Positions 3,105 to 28,125 of a stretch of DNA of 45,407 bases are shown here, piece by piece. The DNA is from an uncultured Actinomycetes bacterium (GTDB lineage Bacteria; Actinomycetota; Acidimicrobiia; Acidimicrobiales; RAAP-2): positions 1 to 45,407 of the forward strand of contig CAIORQ010000090.1 in NCBI GenBank assembly GCA_903860745.1, in the 5' to 3' direction. The position numbers and the translations under genes are program-made. Under the pieces are notes generated by a model. It made no database searches, was not told the DNA's origin, and saw only the letters and a program-made list of their open reading frames with translations. The stretch's first letter is position 1, and each line of letters starts with the position of its first letter.

Positions 3105-4142
3105 TCAGCTCACCTGGGCCAAGAGCGCGTCGATGGTCGCGTCGATGACGGTGGGATTGGCGCTCGTCGAGACGGCGGTGTCGGGGTCCTTCAAGCCGTT
3201 GCCGGTCAGCACGCACACGACGGTGGAGCCTTGGGGCACGCCGAACTTCAAGATGCCCGCCACCGAGGCCGCTGAGGCGGGCTCGCAGAAGATCGACTCG
3301 TAGCGGGCCACGAAACGATAGGCGTCGAGGATCTCGTCGTCGGTCACCGCGCGGATGTCGCCCAGGGACTCGTGGATGACCTCAAGCGCGGGCACCCAAC
3401 TGGCCGGGTTGCCGATGCGGATCGCCGTGGCGATGGTCTCGGGGTTGGCCACGGGATGCCCGAGCACGATGGGCGCCGCGCCGGCGGCCTGGAAGCCCCA
3501 CATCTTGGGCAGTCTCGCGGCGAGTCCGGCGCTGTGGTACTCGAGGAAGCCGCGCCAATAGGCGGTGATGTTGCCCGCGTTGCCCACCGGTATCGACAAG
3601 ATGTCCGGGGCGTCGCCCAGGACGTCGACGACCTCGAAGGCCCCGGTCTTCTGCCCCTCGATGCGATCGGGGTTGATCGAGTTCACGATGGTGATCGGCA
3701 CGTGCTGGGTGAGCTCGCGCGCCAGGTCGAGGGCCTGGTCGAAGTTGCCGCGGATCTGCAGGACCTTCGCGCCGTAGACGATGGCCTGGGCCATCTTGCC
3801 CAGGGCGATCTTGCCCTCGGGCACGAGTACCACGCAGTCCATGCCCGCCTTGGCCGCGTAGGCCGCGGCCGCCGCCGAGGTGTTCCCCGTCGATCCGCAG
3901 ATCACCGTCTTGGCCCCCTGGGCCTTCGCTTTGGTGATCGCCATGGTCATGCCACGGTCCTTGAAGGAGCCCGAGGGGTTGAGCCCCTCGTACTTGAGCC
4001 AGACGTTGGCGCCCACGCGCTCCGAGAGGCGCTCGGCGAAGATCAGCGGCGTGTTGCCCTCCTGGAGGGTCACGATCTCGTCGACCCCTTCGAGGTCGAG
4101 CCACTGCCCGTACTCCTTGAGCAGTCCGTTCCAACCCGTCAC
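3105..4142 (-). CDS. thrC: Threonine synthase
   Basis: PLP enzyme converting O-phosphohomoserine to threonine in the cytoplasm. The 345-aa protein has the PLP-lysine motif SGSFKDRGM, followed by the phosphate-binding region [15 protein letters not shown]. The length fits the short actinobacterial/Bacillus type. The start ATG overlaps the hom stop by 4 nt (ATGA), so hom and thrC are translationally coupled. Homoserine kinase (thrB), which supplies the substrate and usually sits next to thrC, is not found between thrC and rho. Confidence 0.96.
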
Positions 4143-5440
4143 GCGCCACCTCCGTCAATTACGCGAATGCACGCGCCGATTGAGTCCACCGACGCCAGTT
4201 GATCGAGCTCGTCGAGCGTGGACGACACGTCGCGAGCGCGCGCCTCGTGCGTCAGGAACGACAGCCGCGCCTCGGAGCCGAAGCCCGACTGCTCCATCGA
4301 CTGGATCGAGACCTCGTGACGACCGAAGACGCCCGCCACCTGCGCGAGCACCCCGGGCTCGTCGAGCACGTCGAGGCTCAGGTAGTAGACGCTGGTGAGG
4401 TCGCCCTCGTCGACGTTGGTGAGTCGGTCGTCGACGCTGAAGGGGACGTCGTGGCGGCCGCTCGCGCGGTTGCGCGCCGCGTGCAGGACGTCGCCCATCA
4501 CGGCGGTGGCGGTCGGTTCTCCCCCCGCGCCCTGTCCGAGCCACATCAGAGGGCCGCTCTTGTCGCCCTCGACGAAGACCGCGTTCATCGCCCCGTGGAC
4601 GGCGGCGAGGGGGTGCTCGAGTGGGATGAGCGCGGGATGGGTGCGCCGCGAGAGACCGTGCTCGCCGACCCGCTCGACGACGCCGATGAGCTTGATGACG
4701 TAGCCGGCGCGTCGCGCGAAGTCCACGTCCACGGCGCGGACCTTGGCGATGCCCTCGCGCGAGATGGCCTCGCCGTGCAGGGCGGTGCCGATGGCCAGCG
4801 AGGAGAGGATCTGCACCTTGGCGGCGGCGTCGAAGGCCTCGACGTCGGCCGTCGGGTCGGCCTCGGCGTAGCCCAGGGCCTGGGCTTCGGCCAGTGCCTC
4901 GGCGTAGTCGCGGCCCTCGCTGGTCATCTGCGAGAGGATGAAGTTGGTCGTGCCGTTGACGATGCCCAGCACGCGGTTGATCTTCTCGCCGGCGAGCGAG
5001 GTGCGCAGCGCGCGGATGATCGGGATGCCGCCGGCCACCGAGGCCTCGTAGAGGAGGTCGGCGCCGTTGTCGTGGGCCAGTCGGGCGAGTTCGGTGCCGC
5101 ACTCGGCCATCAGGGCCTTGTTGGCGGTCACCACCGAGGCGCCCCGGTGCAGCGCCGTCTCGATCCATGAACGCGTCGGGTCGGTCCCTCCGGCCAACTC
5201 GACCAGGATGTCCACGTCCTCGCGTGCGGCCAGCGCGAGGGGGTCGTCGACGAGCAACGAGGGGTCTATCCCCTCTCGCGGCGTGGTGGTGTCGCGCACC
5301 GCCACCCCGACGATCTCGAGGGTCGCGTTGGCGCCGTCAACCAGGGCGACCTGGCGCGAGGGGTCGGTGAGCAACTGCACGAAGGCGCGCCCCACGAAGC
5401 CCGCGCCGATGACCCCGAGGCGCAGGTTCGGCGTTTCCAT
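4139..5440 (-). CDS. hom: Homoserine dehydrogenase with C-terminal ACT domain
   Basis: NAD(P)-dependent reduction of aspartate semialdehyde to homoserine, the branch point to threonine and methionine. The N-terminus has the Rossmann motif [16 protein letters not shown]; the catalytic region includes [14 protein letters not shown] and [14 protein letters not shown]. The last ~80 residues ([25 protein letters not shown]) are an ACT domain, the usual threonine feedback site. I start at the ATG at 5440 (433 aa), not the TTG two codons earlier, because TAGCCT ends exactly 6 nt upstream, suggesting a leaderless transcript. lysA lies just upstream and thrC overlaps downstream. Confidence 0.96.
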
Positions 5441-21045: not shown

Positions 21046-21831
21046 TTACTTTTGGTGCACCGAGCACCAGTAGGTGGTGCGACCCCCGACGATGTTGATA
21101 CGCATGGCGCCGCCGTCGAGGGGGCAGTGTCCGCCGGGTACCCGACCCTCCATGTGGTCGCCGAGGTGCGAACCGCCGCGACGCTGGAGGCTGCGCATCG
21201 TGGAGGTGAAGGCGCGAAGCAGCGAGGCGCGCTGCGCCGCGTCCAGGGTCCCCGTCGGCGTGCGCGGGTCGATGCCGGCGCGGAACAAGATCTCGTCGCC
21301 GAGCAGGTTGCCCACACCGGCGACGTAGGACTGGTCCAGGAGACGCGCCTTGATGGCGGGGCCCTCTCCGCGCGCCACGGCGAGCACCCCGGCGAACTGC
21401 GCTCGCGTCATCGACAAGGCGTCGGGGCCGAGTTCGCTCAGGTCGGGGTCGATCTCCACGCGCGCCAGGCGCCGGGGGTCGTGCAGGAGCAACTTGCGCC
21501 CGTCGGCGAATTCGAGACCCGCTCGGATCCACTGCGCGCGGTAGACGTGGGGGCCGTAGAAGAGGCCCTCGATCCCGGCGTCGGAATCGACGAGCAGCAC
21601 ACCGGTCATGCCAAAGCGCATCCCCAGCGTCACGCCGTCGGTCTCGATGAGCATTAACTTGCCGCGACGGCCGGTCCCGGTGAGGGTCAGTCCCTTGACG
21701 ACCCGGGCCCACTGCGACGGTGAGCTCAGCTTCTTGGCGGCGTAGGCGTCGGCCCATCCCCGGACCACCCTGGCGCCCACGAGACGATCGCAGAGTTGAC
21801 GATAGGACTCGACTTCGAGCACTTCTGGCAC
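21046..21831 (-). CDS. Fpg/Nei-family DNA glycosylase-like protein
   Basis: Base-excision repair fold of 261 aa. It starts GTG-CCA-GAA, so after Met removal Pro is N-terminal with Glu next (PEVLEVE), the catalytic pair of the family. Helix-two-turn-helix IKARLLDQSYVAGVGNLLGDEILFRAGI is intact. The C-terminal zinc finger is changed: only one cysteine (GHCPLDGG) replaces the usual first CxxC and the second pair is WCSVH (Cys-x-x-His), although the GGRTTYWC hairpin is kept. Related actinobacterial proteins may share this form. TAGTGT lies exactly 6 nt before the GTG. Divergent from the F420 operon. Confidence 0.88.
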   Translation of the reverse strand: MPEVLEVESYRQLCDRLVGARVVRGWADAYAAKKLSSPSQWARVVKGLTLTGTGRRGKLMLIETDGVTLGMRFGMTGVLLVDSDAGIEGLFYGPHVYRAQWIRAGLEFADGRKLLLHDPRRLARVEIDPDLSELGPDALSMTRAQFAGVLAVARGEGPAIKARLLDQSYVAGVGNLLGDEILFRAGIDPRTPTGTLDAAQRASLLRAFTSTMRSLQRRGGSHLGDHMEGRVPGGHCPLDGGAMRINIVGGRTTYWCSVHQK

Positions 21832-21877: not shown

Positions 21878-23002
21878 ATGGCTCTTGAGAAACCCCAGTG
21901 GCGCGAACTCTTCACCGAGGTGGTGACCTCGGGTCTGTGCACGGGATGCGCGGCCTGCGTCGTGGCCTGCCCCCACGACGTCTTGGACTACGAGTCCGCC
22001 AACGGGGTCTACAAGCCCTGGCACCTCGACATCGACGGGGGGCGCGAGGACTGCACCCACGGGGTCAAGGGCTGCACCATGTGCACCCGGGCCTGCCCCC
22101 GCTTTCGCAACTGGGAGTCCGAGATTGACGTCCACCGCTTCGCACGCGAGCGCCGCGACGACGAGGTCTACGGGATCGGCGACGTCGTGCTGGCGCGCTC
22201 GACCGACGAGTCCCTGCTCGAGAACGGACAGGACGGCGGCTTCGTGTCGACGCTGTTGATCTACGCGCTCGAGAACGACCTCATCGACGCCGCGCTGGTC
22301 AGCGGCCTCGAGGGCGATGGTTCGACCTGGCGCGCCGAGCCCCGCGTCGCGCGCACCCGCGCCGAGGTCCTCGACACCGCCAAGTCTCGCTACACCTACA
22401 GCCCCAACCTCCTCGCCTACCCCCAGGCCGCCGAACTGGGCGCCGAACGCATCGCCCTGGTGGGGATGGGCTGCATGGCCTCGGCCCCCGGTGCGATGCA
22501 GACCCGCAAGGCCGGCAAGATCGCCCGACGCCTCAGCCTGACCATCGGACTGCTGTGCTCGAAGACCTTCGACGACGCCATCTTCGAGGAGCTGTTCGAG
22601 AAGAAGTACGGGCTCCGACGCGCCGACATCGTCAAGATGAACATCAAGGGCGTCTTCCAGATCTGGACCCGCGACGGCGCCTTCCACGAGGTGCCGCTCA
22701 AGGAGGCCCACGCCTACACCCGCGAGGGCTGCACCAGCTGCCCGGACTTCGCGGCGGAGCACGCCGACATCTCGGCGGGCGGCATCGGCGCCTTCAGCGA
22801 CTGGACCCTGGTGATCGTGCGAACCGACCAGGGTCGTGAGCTCATGGCGGCGCTCGCGCAGCACGGGCTCATCGAGACCCGTCCCGGTGACGACGACCCC
22901 GGTGCGGTGGCGCTGTTGCACAAGTTGGCGCAGGTCTCGCGCAAGCGCTGGCCCGAATCGGCGAACCCGGGACCGCGACGCATCCCCGTGCGCGCGTCGT
23001 GA
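21878..23002 (+). CDS. Coenzyme F420 hydrogenase/dehydrogenase beta-subunit family protein (FrhB-like)
   Basis: 374-aa flavin/iron-sulfur oxidoreductase related to FrhB/FpoF, which move electrons to or from F420. The N-terminus carries two ferredoxin-type clusters: C21, C24, C27, C31 (CTGCAACVVACP) and C59, C66, C69, C73. The central region has ENGQDGGFVSTLLIYALE and GMGCMASAPGAMQ, then the FrhB cluster region REGCTSCPDFAAEHADISAGGIG. First gene of a four-gene run; its stop overlaps the next start (GTGA). Electron partner is unknown. Actinobacteria do make F420, so the assignment is biologically plausible. Confidence 0.88.
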   Translation: MALEKPQWRELFTEVVTSGLCTGCAACVVACPHDVLDYESANGVYKPWHLDIDGGREDCTHGVKGCTMCTRACPRFRNWESEIDVHRFARERRDDEVYGIGDVVLARSTDESLLENGQDGGFVSTLLIYALENDLIDAALVSGLEGDGSTWRAEPRVARTRAEVLDTAKSRYTYSPNLLAYPQAAELGAERIALVGMGCMASAPGAMQTRKAGKIARRLSLTIGLLCSKTFDDAIFEELFEKKYGLRRADIVKMNIKGVFQIWTRDGAFHEVPLKEAHAYTREGCTSCPDFAAEHADISAGGIGAFSDWTLVIVRTDQGRELMAALAQHGLIETRPGDDDPGAVALLHKLAQVSRKRWPESANPGPRRIPVRAS

Positions 23003-23637
23003 CCATGGCGGTCCCCACTACGACCATCTGGCTGGTGCGTCACGGCGTCACCTCGACGACGGGCAAGGTCCTGCCCGGTCGAGCCCCGGGGCTGCACCTG
23101 GCGGCGCGCGGCGTCGAGCAGGCCCAGCGCGTCGCCCAGCGCCTCGCCGAGCTCGACGTGGCCCCCCGCGGTCTCTACGCCTCGCCACTGGAGCGCACGC
23201 GCGAGACGGCCGCGCCCATCGCCCGCGCGCTCGGCCTGCGGGTTCGCCCCCAACGCGGACTGCTCGAGTGCGACTTCGGCGACTGGACCGGCAGGTCCCT
23301 GGCGTCCCTGCGGCGCAAGCCCGAGTGGAGGGCGGTGCAGAACTCGCCGAGCACCTTCCGTTTCCCCGGCGGCGAGTCCTTCACCGAGATGCAACTACGC
23401 ATCTGGCACACGCTCGAGGCGCTCGCCGAGGCCCACCGGGGTGAGAGCATCGTCGTCGTGAGCCACGCCGACCCCATCAAGGCGGCCGTCACCTACGCCC
23501 AGGGGGTCCCCCTCGACCTGTTCCAACGGACGGTGATCTCCACCTGCTCGATCAGCGCCCTCGTGCTGGGCGGCGCGACGCCGCTCGTGCTCAGCGTCAA
23601 CAACACCGGAGCGATCAAGGAGCTGCAGCCCTCATGA
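22999..23637 (+). CDS. Histidine phosphatase/phosphomutase, MSMEG_4193 family
   Basis: Histidine phosphatase superfamily protein of 212 aa. The phosphohistidine motif is LVRHGVT near residue 15, the second catalytic histidine is in IVVVSHADPIKAAV, and LYASPLERTRETA lies between. Together with the next two genes it matches a three-gene set I know to be widely conserved in Actinobacteria (MSMEG_4193-type phosphomutase, DUF3090, SCO1664 family), function unknown. The start is GTG at 22999 or ATG two codons on; both fit translational coupling to the FrhB-like gene. Confidence 0.9.
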   Translation: MTMAVPTTTIWLVRHGVTSTTGKVLPGRAPGLHLAARGVEQAQRVAQRLAELDVAPRGLYASPLERTRETAAPIARALGLRVRPQRGLLECDFGDWTGRSLASLRRKPEWRAVQNSPSTFRFPGGESFTEMQLRIWHTLEALAEAHRGESIVVVSHADPIKAAVTYAQGVPLDLFQRTVISTCSISALVLGGATPLVLSVNNTGAIKELQPS

Positions 23638-24116
23638 TGTACGAGTTCGACGCCCCGGACAAGGTGATGGTGGGCGTGCGCGGCGAGGTCGGCAACCGCC
23701 TCTTCCTGCTCCAGGCCCGCCAGGGGCGCCGCCTGATCATCCTCAAGTGCGAGAAGGTCCAGTTGGCCGCCCTGGCCCAGTGGATCTCCCAGGTCCTCGA
23801 CGACATGGGACGTCCCGGCCACCTCCCCGACGACTTCACGCTCGAACCCGAGTACGAGGCCGACTTCGCGGTCGGCGACATCGCCATCGCGGTGGACGAG
23901 GAGCGCGACGTGATCGAGGTCACCTTCGAATCGGCCGACGAGGACGACGACACCGCCACCGTGACCCTCACCAAGGAGTGGGCCGGCGGCCTGGCCATCG
24001 CCATCACCCGTCTGGTGGAGGCCGGTCGTCCGCCCTGCCCGCTCTGTGGAGGCCCGCTCGACCCGCGCGGCCACGACTGCCCACGCACCAACGGTCACCG
24101 ACCCCCGGTGCGCTGA
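23634..24116 (+). CDS. DUF3090 family protein with C-terminal zinc ribbon
   Basis: 160-aa actinobacterial protein. The N-terminal part (DKVMVGVRGEVGNRLFLLQARQGRRL) and the acidic central part match DUF3090. The C-terminus holds a CPLCGGPLDPRGHDCP knuckle, a likely zinc site. The start ATG overlaps the phosphatase stop (ATGA) and the next gene begins 2 nt after its stop. No biochemical function is known to me; constant linkage suggests action with the phosphatase and the SCO1664 protein. Confidence 0.9.
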   Translation: MMYEFDAPDKVMVGVRGEVGNRLFLLQARQGRRLIILKCEKVQLAALAQWISQVLDDMGRPGHLPDDFTLEPEYEADFAVGDIAIAVDEERDVIEVTFESADEDDDTATVTLTKEWAGGLAIAITRLVEAGRPPCPLCGGPLDPRGHDCPRTNGHRPPVR

Positions 24117-24118
24117 GC

Positions 24119-24826
24119 GTGCGGCGCGAGGATCAAGTCGAGGTCCTGCGCCACGGCGCGGTCGAGGTCGAGGGCCGCGTCGCGGGATCGTCGAACCAGG
24201 CGCTGCTGGTCAACGTCACCCTGGACGGCGTCAGCGCCCGGGCGTGCTACAAGGCCGAGGCCGGTGAACGCCCCCTGTGGGACTTCGACGACGGGCTCTG
24301 GCGACGCGAGGTGGCCGCCGGGGAGCTCGACCACCTCCTCGGCACCGACCTCGTGCCCACGACCATCGCCCGCGAGGACCTGCCCTTCGGCGTCGGCTCA
24401 CTGCAGTGGTGGGTGGAGGACGCCACCGACGACCACTACTTCACCCTGCGCGAGAAGGAGACCCTGCTGCCCTGGTTCACCGACCTGTGCGCCTTCGACG
24501 TGGTGGCCAACAACGCCGACCGCAAGGGTGGGCACATCCTCTTCGACGGGACCCGCTGTTGGGCCATCGACAACGGTCTGTGCTTCCACGAGGAGGAGAA
24601 GCTGCGCACGGTCATCTGGGAGTACGCCGAACTGGCCCTCCCCGACCGCTTCCTCGAGCCACTGGCTCGACTCGCGGCCGGAGAGACCGGTGCGCTGGGC
24701 CACCTGTTGAGCGCCGAGGAGGTGACGGCCACCATGCGGCGGGCCCACGAGCTCCTGGTCTCCTCGAGCTTCCCGGTGCCCAACGAGGAGAGCGACTGGC
24801 CCCCCTACCCCTGGCCGCTGATCTAG
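24119..24826 (+). CDS. SCO1664-family protein (PI3K/PI4K-like kinase fold)
   Basis: 235-aa protein from a GTG at 24119. The region CAFDVVANNADRKGGHIL resembles the catalytic loop of phosphoinositide-kinase-like proteins (Asp followed by Asn/His positions) and CWAIDNGLCFH resembles the metal-binding DxG segment. VSARACYKAEAGERPLWDF could hold the ATP-contacting lysine. Activity on lipid, protein or small molecule is unknown. Last gene of the FrhB-phosphatase-DUF3090-SCO1664 operon; it converges on the MFS gene with 8 bp between. Confidence 0.85.
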   Translation: MRREDQVEVLRHGAVEVEGRVAGSSNQALLVNVTLDGVSARACYKAEAGERPLWDFDDGLWRREVAAGELDHLLGTDLVPTTIAREDLPFGVGSLQWWVEDATDDHYFTLREKETLLPWFTDLCAFDVVANNADRKGGHILFDGTRCWAIDNGLCFHEEEKLRTVIWEYAELALPDRFLEPLARLAAGETGALGHLLSAEEVTATMRRAHELLVSSSFPVPNEESDWPPYPWPLI

Positions 24827-24834
24827 ACGATCAC

Positions 24835-26298
24835 CTACAACAGGGGGAGCAACTCACCCTCGAACTCGGGGACACCGGACTCCAGCATGAAGAAGGTGAT
24901 CACGGCGCCCACGCCGAAGAAGCCCGCCGCCCACCAGAACGCGACCGAGTAGCCGTGCAACGTGTCGGCGAAGGTGGTGTGGCACAAGGGCGAGACGATG
25001 CCGCTGGGCGCGCACGAGGCTCGCCGCGTGGTGATCACCGCGATGGTGTTGAGCAGCGCCGTTCCCACCGACCCACCCATCTGCTGGGCCAGGTTGACGG
25101 TCGCCGACGCCGCACCGGCGTCACGCGCCTCGATGCCCGCGGTGGCGCTCGCCGTCGAAGGGGCGAAGATCAGGCCCAGCCCCAGTCCCGTGACCACCAG
25201 GCCGGGCAGGACGTGGCCGAGGTAGTCCTCCTGCACCGGCAGCTTGGTGAAGAGGACCATCCCCATGAGCCCGAGCAGCATCCCCACCGGTACGAGAGGT
25301 CGCGGACCGACCAGGTCGAGCAGTCGGGCACTGGCCAGCGACGCCGAGAGGGCCAGCGCTCCCACGAGGGGCAGGAACAGGACCCCCGTCTTGAGCGGCG
25401 AGTAGCCGAGGGTGTTCTCCATGTAGAAGGCCAGGAACAGCGAGAGTCCGAAGATCCCGATGGTGGTGACGAAGAGGGCGAAGAGCGAACCTCCGCGCGT
25501 TCGGTTCGTCACGATGCGCAGTGGCAACAGCGGATGCTGCGAGTGGCCCTGCCAGACCACGAAGAAGCCCATCAAGACACCACCAGCCCCCAGGCTCAGC
25601 CAGGTGTCGGCGTTACCCCATCCGGTGGTGACGGCCCGACCCAGACCGAAGACCAGCGCGAAGAGTCCCGCGCTGCCGAGCACCGTGCCCACCAGGTCCA
25701 GGTGGCTGGTGCGGTCCCCCCGGCCGCCGGCGACCACGACCAGCACGCCCACCAGCGACACCGCGGCGAAGACCACGTTGACCAGCAGACACCAGCGCCA
25801 GGTCGCCCACTGCGTCAGTGCTCCGCCCAAGATGAGGCCGATGGCCGCGCCGGAGCCACCGATCGCCCCGAAGATCGCGAAGGCCCGCGCGCGTTCCTTG
25901 GGCTCTCGGAAGGTGACGGTGAGCGCGGCCAGGGCGGCGGGAGCGAGCAGGGCGCCGAAGACGCCCTGCGCGGCGCGAGCGCTGACCAGTTCGCCGAAGG
26001 TCCGCGCGGCGCCACCCGCGGCCGACGCGGCCGCGAAGCCCACCAGTCCCACGACCAGGGAGGTGCGCCGTCCCCACAGGTCGCTGAGTCGACCACCCAG
26101 GAACATCAACGAGCCGAAGGCCAACACGTAGGCGGTGATGAGCCACTGGCGGCTCGCGGCCGAGAAGCGCAGGTCCTGCTGGGCGCTCGGCAGGGCGATG
26201 TTGATGACCGTGGCGTCGAGGGCCACCATCAGCTGGATCAGGCTGAGGGTCGCCAGGGCCCACCACCGACCGTGCTGCGAAGTGGGGGCGCCGTCCAT
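24835..26298 (-). CDS. MFS drug exporter, DHA2 (14-helix) family
   Basis: 487-aa proton-driven exporter of the EmrB/QacA type. Opening helix LATLSLIQLMVALDATVINIALPS carries the DHA2 motif D1 (LDxTVxNVALP), LGGRLSDLWGRRTSLVVG is the conserved loop A motif, and about 14 hydrophobic segments follow. Such pumps export hydrophobic drugs or metabolites; substrate unknown. TAGGCT sits 13 nt before the ATG, giving a leader of only ~6 nt. Single-gene unit between convergent and co-directional neighbours. Confidence 0.93.
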   Translation of the reverse strand: MDGAPTSQHGRWWALATLSLIQLMVALDATVINIALPSAQQDLRFSAASRQWLITAYVLAFGSLMFLGGRLSDLWGRRTSLVVGLVGFAAASAAGGAARTFGELVSARAAQGVFGALLAPAALAALTVTFREPKERARAFAIFGAIGGSGAAIGLILGGALTQWATWRWCLLVNVVFAAVSLVGVLVVVAGGRGDRTSHLDLVGTVLGSAGLFALVFGLGRAVTTGWGNADTWLSLGAGGVLMGFFVVWQGHSQHPLLPLRIVTNRTRGGSLFALFVTTIGIFGLSLFLAFYMENTLGYSPLKTGVLFLPLVGALALSASLASARLLDLVGPRPLVPVGMLLGLMGMVLFTKLPVQEDYLGHVLPGLVVTGLGLGLIFAPSTASATAGIEARDAGAASATVNLAQQMGGSVGTALLNTIAVITTRRASCAPSGIVSPLCHTTFADTLHGYSVAFWWAAGFFGVGAVITFFMLESGVPEFEGELLPLL

Positions 26299-26383: not shown

Positions 26384-27346
26384 TCAACCGCGGGACTTGA
26401 GGGCCGCGACCAGTGCCGGCAGGACGGCGTGCACGTCACCCACGATGCCGAGGTCGGCGATCGAGAAGATGGGCGCGTCGGGGTCCTTGTTGATGGCCAC
26501 GATGTGCGACGCACCCTTCATGCCGACCATGTGCTGGGTCGCCCCCGAGATGCCGCAGGCCACGTAGAGCTCGGGCTTGACCGTCTTGCCGGTCTGACCG
26601 ACCTGGTAGGCGTAGGGCACCCAGCCGGCGTCCACGATGGCGCGACTCGCCCCCGGAGCGCCGCCCAGCAGACGAGCGAGCTCCTCGATGAGCGAGTAGG
26701 AGGCGACGTCGCCCAGGCCGCGCCCACCCGACACCACGACCGCGGCGTCCTCGAGCGCCGGACCGGATCGCTCCTCGACGTGGCTCGCCCGGACGGTGGC
26801 CGCCCTCGTCGTGGGGGCGCTGGGAGCGAGCGCCACGCGTGGGGCCGGCGAGTCCCCGGTGGCCTCGGCGACGAAAGACTTCGCCCGCACCACGAAGAGC
26901 CCCGGTCCCTCGCCACGCAGTCGCGCCACCGCCGTCTGGGTGCCTCCGAAGACCGGGTGCTCACTGAGGAGCTCGTCGCCCGCGCGCAGGCCGGTCACGT
27001 TGGTCAGGACCGGCCGGTCCAGCATCGCCGACAAGCGTCCGGCGATGTCGCGACCATCGTTGCTCGCGGGGATCAGCACCGCGTCCGTGGTCTCGGCGCT
27101 CAGCGCGGCGGCCACGCTGGCCGCGACGACGCTGGCCGGGAGCACGGCGCCCAGCTCCCCGAGGTCCAGGAGCCGGCTCGCTCCGAACTCGCCGACCACG
27201 CGCGCCACGTCATCCCCGTGGGGTCCCCACGAGACCGCGGTGACCTCGGCGCCGAGTCGGCGTGCTTCGCTCAGCAGTTCCTTCGAGGTCGTCGTGACGC
27301 CGTTGCCCGACGGCTCGGCGACGACCCACATCGTCGTGACGCTCAT
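26384..27346 (-). CDS. etfA: Electron transfer flavoprotein, alpha subunit
   Basis: FAD-binding subunit of the ETF heterodimer that takes electrons from acyl-CoA dehydrogenases. The 320-aa sequence ends with the ETF alpha signature: [42 protein letters not shown], and [22 protein letters not shown]. Its ATG overlaps the etfB stop (ATGA). An acyl-CoA dehydrogenase fragment at 45.1 kb is the only likely electron donor visible in the window. Confidence 0.96.
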
Positions 27347-28125
27347 GACGCACCCCCGGAGAGGACCTTGATCTCCTCGAGGTAGGACACGATGCGCTGG
27401 GCGGCGTCGCCCTCGTCGACGTACTTCTCGCCCGCGCTGCGCGCCGCGGCGGCCTCCACGGCCACCACGTCCTGACGGGGGTCGAGCGACGCCGGGGCGA
27501 GGCCGAGGTCACTGACGCTGAGCACGTCCACCGGACGCGACTTGGCGGCCATGATGCCCTTGAAGGTCGCGTAGCGGGGCTCGACGACTCCGGCCGTCAC
27601 GGTCACCAGGGCCGGGAGCTCGGCGGAGACCTCGTCGTATCCGGCCTCGGTCTGGCGGTGCGTCACGACGGTCGTGCCCTCCACGGTGACCGAGGTGGCG
27701 AAGGTCAGCGCGGGCAGGTCGAGCAGTTGGGCGAGCTGCACCGGCAGGGTCCCGGTGTAGCCGTCGGAGGACTCGGTGGCGCAGATGACCAGGTCCGCGG
27801 CGAGACGCGAGACCGCCGCCGCCAGGACCTTGGCGGTGGTCAGGGCGTCGGCCCCGCGCAACGACTCGTCGCTCACCACGGTGGCCCGGGCCGCGCCCAT
27901 GGCCAGGGCGCTGCGGATCCCCGAGACGTCCGAGCCCTCGCCCATGGAGACGAGGAGGACCTCGCCGTCGCCGGCGGCCTCCACCAGCCGAAGGGCGACT
28001 TCGACGCCGTAGGTGTCGGCCTCGTCCAGGATCAACTTGCCGCCACGGTTCAGACGATGATGCTCATCGAGGGACTGGGGAGCGGCGGGGTCGGGTATCT
28101 GTTTCACGCAGACGACAACGTTCAT
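27343..28125 (-). CDS. etfB: Electron transfer flavoprotein, beta subunit
   Basis: AMP-binding subunit of ETF, 260 aa. Hallmarks: NVVVCVKQIPDP start, LNRGGKLILDEADTYGVEVALRL, and VEPRYATFKGIMAAKSRPV near the C-terminus. TAGATT ends exactly 6 nt before the ATG with no Shine-Dalgarno sequence, pointing to leaderless transcription of etfB-etfA. Confidence 0.97.
   Translation of the reverse strand: MNVVVCVKQIPDPAAPQSLDEHHRLNRGGKLILDEADTYGVEVALRLVEAAGDGEVLLVSMGEGSDVSGIRSALAMGAARATVVSDESLRGADALTTAKVLAAAVSRLAADLVICATESSDGYTGTLPVQLAQLLDLPALTFATSVTVEGTTVVTHRQTEAGYDEVSAELPALVTVTAGVVEPRYATFKGIMAAKSRPVDVLSVSDLGLAPASLDPRQDVVAVEAAAARSAGEKYVDEGDAAQRIVSYLEEIKVLSGGAS

Follow-up and report, generated by a model that had tools for sequence, protein, structure and literature searches.

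The DNA analysed here, referred to as the window, is a stretch of 45,407 nucleotides (contig CAIORQ010000090.1, here C90, of assembly GCA_903860745.1) from an uncultured bacterium of the class Acidimicrobiia in the phylum Actinomycetota, whose genome assembly comprises 2.13 Mb in 110 contigs and is 96.6% complete. At 21878-24826 it contains four tandem plus-strand genes encoding an FrhB-like protein, a histidine phosphatase, a DUF3090 protein and an SCO1664-like protein (Table 1); the last three are referred to below as the trio. An earlier sequence-only reading had described four genes following one another without gaps, with the FrhB-like gene at the head of a conserved actinobacterial phosphatase/DUF3090/SCO1664 set. 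Open reading frame analysis confirms this layout, with a GTGA overlap between the FrhB-like and phosphatase genes, an ATGA overlap between the phosphatase and DUF3090 genes, and a gap of 2 nucleotides before the SCO1664-like gene. The assignments hold as well: the FrhB_FdhB_N and FrhB_FdhB_C domains of Pfam score 78.5 bits (cut-off 22) and 123.3 bits (cut-off 23.3), respectively, and Pfam and NCBIfam scans agree on the trio families, two of the NCBIfam scores being just under cut-off. The FrhB-like gene and the trio are read as an operon, the four genes being presumably co-transcribed in view of the overlaps; use of an alternative phosphatase ATG at 23005, six bases downstream, would abolish the GTGA overlap. 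A promoter and terminator scan of the window returned nothing, which says little for a GC-rich actinobacterium.

Table 1. Features of the four-gene operon and its surroundings in the window (aa, amino acids).
Feature	Coordinates	Strand	Basis or remark
FrhB/FpoF-type protein, 374 aa	21878-23002	+	PF04422, PF04432, PF12838 above cut-off; phmmer; model match
Ferredoxin-like domain of FrhB-like protein	21938-22096	+	C21, C24, C27, C31; C59, C66, C69, C73
K257-G258 of NIKG turn	22646-22651	+	aligned with FrhB 163-IGKGK turn near F420
Histidine phosphatase (branch 1), TIGR03848-like, 212 aa	22999-23637	+	GTG start; PF00300 166.3 bits
DUF3090 protein, 160 aa	23634-24116	+	PF11290 109.6 bits; C-terminal zinc-ribbon-like CxxC...HxC
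SCO1664-family kinase-like protein, 235 aa	24119-24826	+	TIGR03843 above cut-off; type II PI4-kinase fold (model)
Fpg-type gene	21046-21831	-	Pfam/NCBIfam; divergent from FrhB gene, 46-nucleotide gap
Major facilitator superfamily transporter gene	24835-26298	-	convergent with the four-gene set
Electron transfer flavoprotein alpha and beta genes	26384-28125		near the operon

Comparisons of the sequence and of a predicted structure indicate that the FrhB-like protein is probably a soluble, stand-alone ferredoxin:F420 oxidoreductase resembling FpoF. As in FpoF and FqoF, the input subunits of the F420H2 dehydrogenases of Methanosarcina and Archaeoglobus, an N-terminal 2x[4Fe-4S] ferredoxin domain (Fer4_7, above cut-off) is joined to an FrhB domain, one of the features that mark membership of this group, in a protein of similar length; soluble FpoF of Methanosarcina mazei is reported to have ferredoxin:F420 oxidoreductase activity (PMC9012536). 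In contrast to FpoF and FqoF, the window protein is bacterial and scores 140.4 bits against the curated NCBIfam FpoF model, below the cut-off of 475; no Fpo or Fqo genes were seen among the neighbour proteins scanned, which are a part of all neighbours. The FrhB domain contains four further cysteines (C199, C227, C285 and C288) that align with those of FrhB and of the structure 8riu and would ligate a third cluster, and all twelve cluster cysteines are invariant in a 48-row alignment of sequences from the class, as they are in all 24 rows of a broader one.

Matches to proteins of known structure point in the same direction. Those found by phmmer include 8riu_B (3.3e-48) and 3zfs_C (2.2e-44), and the predicted structure, with a mean predicted local distance difference test score (pLDDT) of 69.4, most closely resembles 8riu_B (Z 33.2 across 335 residues) and 8rja_E (Z 29.1), over most of its length, followed by FrhB and Fsr (Z 27.6-28.6) and the plant reductase HCAR (Z 25.2). 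Both leading matches come from Ca. Ethanoperedens, an ethane-oxidising archaeon, 8riu being the zeta subunit of its F420-reducing carbon monoxide dehydrogenase and 8rja the FrhB-like subunit of its F420-reducing formylmethanofuran dehydrogenase. In the portions of the source available, the 8riu subunit is described as a flavin-dependent F420 reductase with a ferredoxin domain followed by an F420-reductase domain holding flavin adenine dinucleotide (FAD) and one cluster (PMC11493965), and the window protein shares both domains. Unlike these subunits, which are bound to their respective dehydrogenases, the FrhB-like protein has no gene for either dehydrogenase among its neighbour proteins scanned. 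FrhB of the F420-reducing hydrogenase and the N-terminal half of Fsr share with it the F420-oxidoreductase domain, the four cluster cysteines, and the motifs QDGG and AD(I/V)S..G(I/V)G, but it scores only 192.7 bits against the hydrogenase frhB equivalog TIGR03289 (cut-off 331.5). A role as part of a hydrogenase or sulfite reductase was considered and rejected, as the protein has no fused sulfite-reductase or other such domain and the scanned neighbours include no gene of either kind.

In FrhB, F420 lies near S209/V210 and the IGKGK turn, according to the parts of the structural report available (PMC3591093). The small-residue loop containing S209/V210 corresponds to GGIG in the FrhB-like protein and the turn reads NIKGV, in which K257 is invariant and the second lysine of FrhB is replaced by V259. 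In the wider alignment the second position is valine in the class rows and in the non-class loci L153, L154 and L160, and arginine or lysine in 15 of the 16 remaining rows. The expectation that F420-binding residues would be present is thus borne out for K257 and fails for the second lysine, and we consider an F420 site in this protein probable.

The distribution of genes among genomes also connects the FrhB-like protein with F420. Among 296 sampled genomes of the phylum, FrhB-like genes are present in 88, DUF3090 genes in 126, and CofD genes in 164; dropping three weak FrhB rows (G188, G345 and G394) leaves 85 genomes with an FrhB orthologue. CofD is encoded in 79 of these 85 versus 85 of the 211 others (81 of 88 with the weak rows), DUF3090 in 80 of 85 versus 46 of 211 (80 of 88 with the weak rows), and CofD is also present in 114 of the 126 DUF3090 genomes. 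The window's own genome encodes cofD, cofE and npdG. In a sample of 148 genomes of the class, where FrhB-like genes were counted at E <= 1e-30, CofD does not discriminate (142 at E <= 0.001, 121 above cut-off), but npdG is found in 71 of the 73 genomes with an FrhB identity of 53% or more, and in 72 of 80 over all FrhB hits; reciprocally, 72 of 76 npdG genomes have an FrhB hit, 66 of the 76 npdG hits being above cut-off. A search of the class for FGD (TIGR03554) gave no match, and since the control matched nowhere either this is uninformative. One family of the class with genomes of about 1.1 Mb (f14; for example G005, G011 and G017) encodes CofD and has no DUF3090, FrhB-like or npdG hit at the thresholds used, so that these F420 producers show no evident enzyme for reducing F420.

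Outside the class, 20 FrhB regions from 19 genomes were examined, with fbiC and fdxA counted by tblastn; the open reading frame picker used on these and on the non-class trio regions is crude and missed genes. The fbiC gene adjoins the FrhB gene in four of the 20 (L153-L156): in L153-L155 the pair is co-directional and almost contiguous, while cofD and cofE/fbiB diverge from it, and in L156 the two are adjacent in divergent orientation. FbiC of L153 and L156 matches CofGH well above cut-off. Seven other regions (L160, L162, L164, L165, L167, L169 and L170) have an FdxA-type ferredoxin gene in tail-to-tail orientation to the FrhB gene and no more than 2.7 kb from it, and L168 has one 5.8 kb away; assignment to FdxA_Actino was confirmed in L160, L162, L165 and L170. 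Because of these fbiC and FdxA neighbours outside the class, the FrhB gene appears to belong to F420/ferredoxin biology, with the trio as its neighbour in one class. Contig C1 of genome G354 (5.56 Mb) carries two near-identical FrhB-like copies, at 131491-132564 (L165) and 4947955-4949025 (L166), with FdxA genes beside the first only.

These observations bear on two other interpretations of the enzyme. It could be a ferredoxin-dependent flavoprotein of the HCAR/BciB type that reduces an organic substrate and makes no use of F420, as the common fold with HCAR and the loss of the second F420-turn lysine would allow; the F420-reducing subunits score higher than HCAR in the structural comparison, and with the co-occurrence of cofD, the fbiC neighbours, and the presence of npdG in nearly all class genomes with an FrhB of at least 53% identity we think this unlikely. 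Alternatively, the frhB-fbiC pairs of L153-L156 could reflect a dedicated electron donor to the radical-SAM FO synthase FbiC, with the FrhB-like protein relaying electrons from F420H2 or ferredoxin to the clusters of FbiC. The pairing is restricted to four of 20 regions, and 85 of the 164 cofD genomes are without an FrhB orthologue, so FbiC does not generally depend on the FrhB-like protein and such a dedicated role seems highly improbable. The F420 assignment predicted from sequence and model is well supported by independent context, namely cofD co-occurrence and fbiC neighbours, and the F420 connection initially suspected for this protein stands.

Whether linkage of the FrhB-like gene to the trio extends beyond one genome had been set beforehand as a test, and a one-genome accident is ruled out. 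In the class, DUF3090 is found in 85 and FrhB-like genes in 80 of the 148 genomes, with 70 genomes containing both, 15 DUF3090 alone, 10 FrhB alone, and 53 neither. The two genes are on the same contig in 54 of the 70, every pair within 9.1 kb, and on different contigs in 16, where the two may or may not be truly unlinked. FrhB is upstream and co-directional in 29 of the 54 and convergent in 25. A gap of 638-700 nucleotides between FrhB and DUF3090, with space for the phosphatase only, is confined to 11 of the 12 sampled genomes of the window's family, and the twelfth has neither gene. Among 80 FrhB loci from named records the trio is downstream on the same strand in 66, convergent in three, and not seen in 11, of which only L069 and L080 provide a full-length stretch, the remaining stretches ending near the gene. 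The FrhB gene is followed by all three trio genes on its own strand in 65 of the 80, a recurrence beyond chance, the sixty-sixth locus being cut before SCO1664, and the phosphatase match begins no more than 250 bp from FrhB in 56 of the 66.

The class FrhB sequences form one clade in a 34-row tree, with support of 100/100, and most of the closest relatives of the window's FrhB among named records belong to Acidimicrobiaceae, Acidimicrobiales or unplaced Actinomycetota. Five records titled Bifidobacterium breve, Acidobacteria or Acidobacteriota (L079, L007, L010, L026 and L038) encode FrhB proteins that are 68-90% identical; their trio genes are Acidimicrobiia-like, L010 nests among Acidimicrobiia in the tree, and the titles look misassigned.

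A second interpretation, to which we give a little less than an even chance, is that the FrhB-like enzyme is as described above and its adjacency to the trio is inherited synteny without a joint role. The compact arrangement is confined, within the class sample, to the window's family, and nearly half of the linked class genomes have the two convergent. Of the genomes outside the class, 59 encode both; reading by eye places the two on one contig in six of these and on different contigs in the rest. The six pairs are separated by between 26 kb and about 1.5 Mb, four of them, from one family, by 26-46 kb, and no linkage closer than 26 kb was found. Other genes of the neighbourhood, Fpg and DedA, are conserved too, and a census of the 80 class loci showed only housekeeping-type neighbours with no common pathway: Fpg, DedA, a peroxiredoxin, a DEAD helicase, electron transfer flavoprotein, a CLC channel, and a uracil-DNA glycosylase-like protein recur, with Fpg, electron transfer flavoprotein and CLC named by profile scans and most others by reading the sequences. 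On the other side, the convergent-trio loci L076, L078 and L079, in which the nearest trio gene is 1.7-2.2 kb from FrhB, have no Fpg or DedA match in the stretch examined, and the trio marker DUF3090 accompanies FrhB in 80 of 85 genomes of the phylum sample. We regard a functional tie between the FrhB-like protein and the trio as a plausible hypothesis.

The SCO1664-like protein, which had been read as PI-kinase-like, scores 216.5 bits against TIGR03843 (cut-off 172.4) and 23.4 bits against PF00454 of the PI3/PI4-kinases, below the cut-off of 27.1. Its predicted structure (pLDDT 88.7) has the fold of type II phosphatidylinositol 4-kinase (Z 18.8 over 219 of 235 residues), followed by those of Fam20 (Z 15.8), CtkA (Z 13.5) and HipA (Z 11.4), with which it shares an invariant lysine, a DRK motif and an aspartate. 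Across 42 aligned rows K45, D134, R135, K136, G138, H139 and D151 do not vary, and K45, D134 and D151 are presumably catalytic, roles that we assign from the fold. The loop DRKxGH, a difference from type II PI4-kinase, is invariant in the same 42 rows and indicates an unusual metal site; PI-kinases and HipA carry an asparagine at the catalytic-loop position where SCO1664 has the histidine. The DUF3090 protein exceeds the PF11290 cut-off of 27 and scores 113.2 bits against TIGR03847, below the cut-off of 117.25; C135, C138, H147 and C149 of its C-x2-C...H-x-C tail are invariant in 13 rows. The phosphatase matches His_Phos_1 in full and the MSMEG_4193 family TIGR03848 at 188.7 bits, below the cut-off of 203.85, and R14, H15, R66, E90 and H156 are invariant in 16 rows. 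An assayed relative, Rv2135c, is described in the accessible parts of one report as an acid phosphatase whose substrate is not known and whose gene is predicted to be in one operon with that of an undecaprenyl pyrophosphate phosphatase (PMC3866925).

From a kinase-like and a phosphatase-like protein beside a redox enzyme, the sequence-only reading took it that a phosphorylated cofactor or metabolite may be made, repaired or switched, which would then serve that enzyme. Conserved catalytic residues in both proteins, the kinase fold of the SCO1664 model, and the co-occurrence of DUF3090 with FrhB and with cofD are all consistent with such a scheme, but 46 of the 126 DUF3090 genomes are without an FrhB orthologue, the non-class pairs on one contig are never close, and in 25 of the 54 class genomes with linkage the trio is convergent with the FrhB gene and cannot be on one transcript with it; we find this scheme decidedly unlikely.

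The actinomycete trio of SCO1664, MSMEG_4193 and DUF3090 consists of the same families in the same order (phosphatase, DUF3090, SCO1664), and differs from the window trio in adjoining mshC rather than an FrhB-like gene and in that the window phosphatase and DUF3090 fall just below the NCBIfam cut-offs. Among 18 non-class trio regions the surroundings include lyase/fumarase-like, PALP-type, RecO, ProRS, acetyl-CoA synthetase-like, GlnD-like and UppP genes and mshC, and of the recurrent neighbours scanned only mshC and UppP look informative. We examined 80 non-class genomes, selected according to whether DUF3090 is present (40 of 103) or absent (40 of 166), for MshC, using a threshold of 355 bits (389 bits in the class), both set after a gap was seen in the scores. 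MshC above 355 bits is present in 17 of the 40 with DUF3090 and two of the 40 without; all ten genomes with MshC over the curated cut-off have DUF3090, and in eight of these no more than 1.8 kb separates the trio from mshC. Mycothiol-type genomes in this sample thus mostly carry the trio marker. To our knowledge, the gene for the MshA2 step is unassigned. This phosphatase step is drawn without a gene locus in mycothiol schemes, as far as the excerpts available extend (PMC4360819, PMC9736012, PMC2628429), and the trio phosphatase is a candidate for it, no more. Together with the close linkage of SCO1664 to mshC, described as invariable in the portion of the report available (PMC4255298), these data favour the inherited-synteny interpretation, under which the trio would serve another route, in actinomycetes perhaps mycothiol, with the phosphatase a candidate for MshA2 and the PI-kinase-like protein perhaps acting on an inositol compound. 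However, 23 of the 40 DUF3090 genomes are without MshC above 355 bits, and mycothiol is therefore unlikely to be the only role of the trio.

The mycothiol ligase gene is absent from the window, as the sequence-only reading had stated; the top-scoring MshC-like gene in this genome lies on contig C52, where npdG is directly followed (the pair at 3334-5069, minus strand; L173) by a gene for an MshC-like ligase of 393 residues that scores 429 bits against the cut-off of 485 and also 343 bits against cysS. Because every class hit is below the curated cut-off of 485 bits, MshC is a probable name in the class. In 70 of the 70 class genomes having an MshC-like gene (a partial hit in G031 being uncounted) it directly follows npdG on the same strand, with a gap of 0-345 nucleotides, which suggests an F420-mycothiol connection. 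The best MshA-like gene of the window's genome scores 362 bits, below the cut-off of 462.5, the next best scoring 98.

Returning to the FpoF-like interpretation, we envisage that hydride from F420H2 would pass to the FAD of the FrhB-like protein and from there, as single electrons, through three [4Fe-4S] clusters to a small FdxA-type ferredoxin, or in the reverse direction. Together with npdG, an NADPH:F420 oxidoreductase (NADPH, reduced nicotinamide adenine dinucleotide phosphate), the enzyme would constitute an NADPH-F420-ferredoxin relay, of which it is the likely ferredoxin arm. The trio would be a separate phosphorylation module serving the same redox physiology, with the FrhB gene its neighbour in the class and the head of its operon in the window's family. 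As a whole, this explanation of an FpoF-like enzyme, an npdG relay, and a separate trio seems to us somewhat better than an even bet.

Several observations weigh against it. One of the two turn lysines of FrhB is a valine here, as it is in the fbiC-linked L153 and L154, HCAR reduces another substrate with the same fold, and most of the ferredoxin domain is modelled with a pLDDT below 50. None of the 80 class loci has FdxA, FbiC, CofD or npdG near FrhB by tblastn, and by the same method eight of the 20 non-class regions have neither fbiC nor FdxA. CofD is missing from six of the 85 genomes with an FrhB orthologue (G157, G207, G281, G294, G340 and G400, with listed completeness of 94, 62, 90, 81, 95 and 66%, respectively), and npdG from eight of the 80 class genomes with an FrhB hit, including G006 and G012, whose FrhB is 57% identical. 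Lastly, the sampled genomes are related, which inflates the co-occurrence figures; Fisher P values ignore kinship and are therefore not used as proof.

The electron transfer flavoprotein genes near the operon recur at the class FrhB loci, with alpha and beta gene clusters at 47 and 45 of the 80, and the window alpha subunit weakly resembles the mycofactocin-linked type (153.5 bits, cut-off 240).

In Table 1 of a 2021 review of F420, the FrhB (F420-dependent redox coupling, FDRC) enzyme family is placed only in Euryarchaeota (PMC8498797), and the bacterial F420-reducing enzymes named in the literature available are Fno, Fgd and Adf homologues. No treatment of this bacterial enzyme was found among the titles and opening lines of abstracts inspected from the open-access literature, which does not prove that none has been published. 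The operon thus probably presents an FpoF-like enzyme that is bacterial and stand-alone and has a new genomic neighbourhood, the enzyme type having been described so far mainly from archaea. A broader and rather unlikely scenario is that non-actinomycete Actinomycetota run an npdG/FpoF-like/FdxA relay with the trio as its phosphorylation partner, and that the actinomycete lineage, which is without an FrhB-type enzyme in the sample, re-coupled the trio to mycothiol via mshC, where its phosphatase could supply MshA2. A version of the enzyme conserved across many actinobacterial families, with ties to fbiC, cofD, npdG and ferredoxin, would extend the F420 metabolism of bacteria by a ferredoxin branch, and an orphan kinase/phosphatase trio would gain a redox setting in which its role becomes testable in laboratory actinomycetes.

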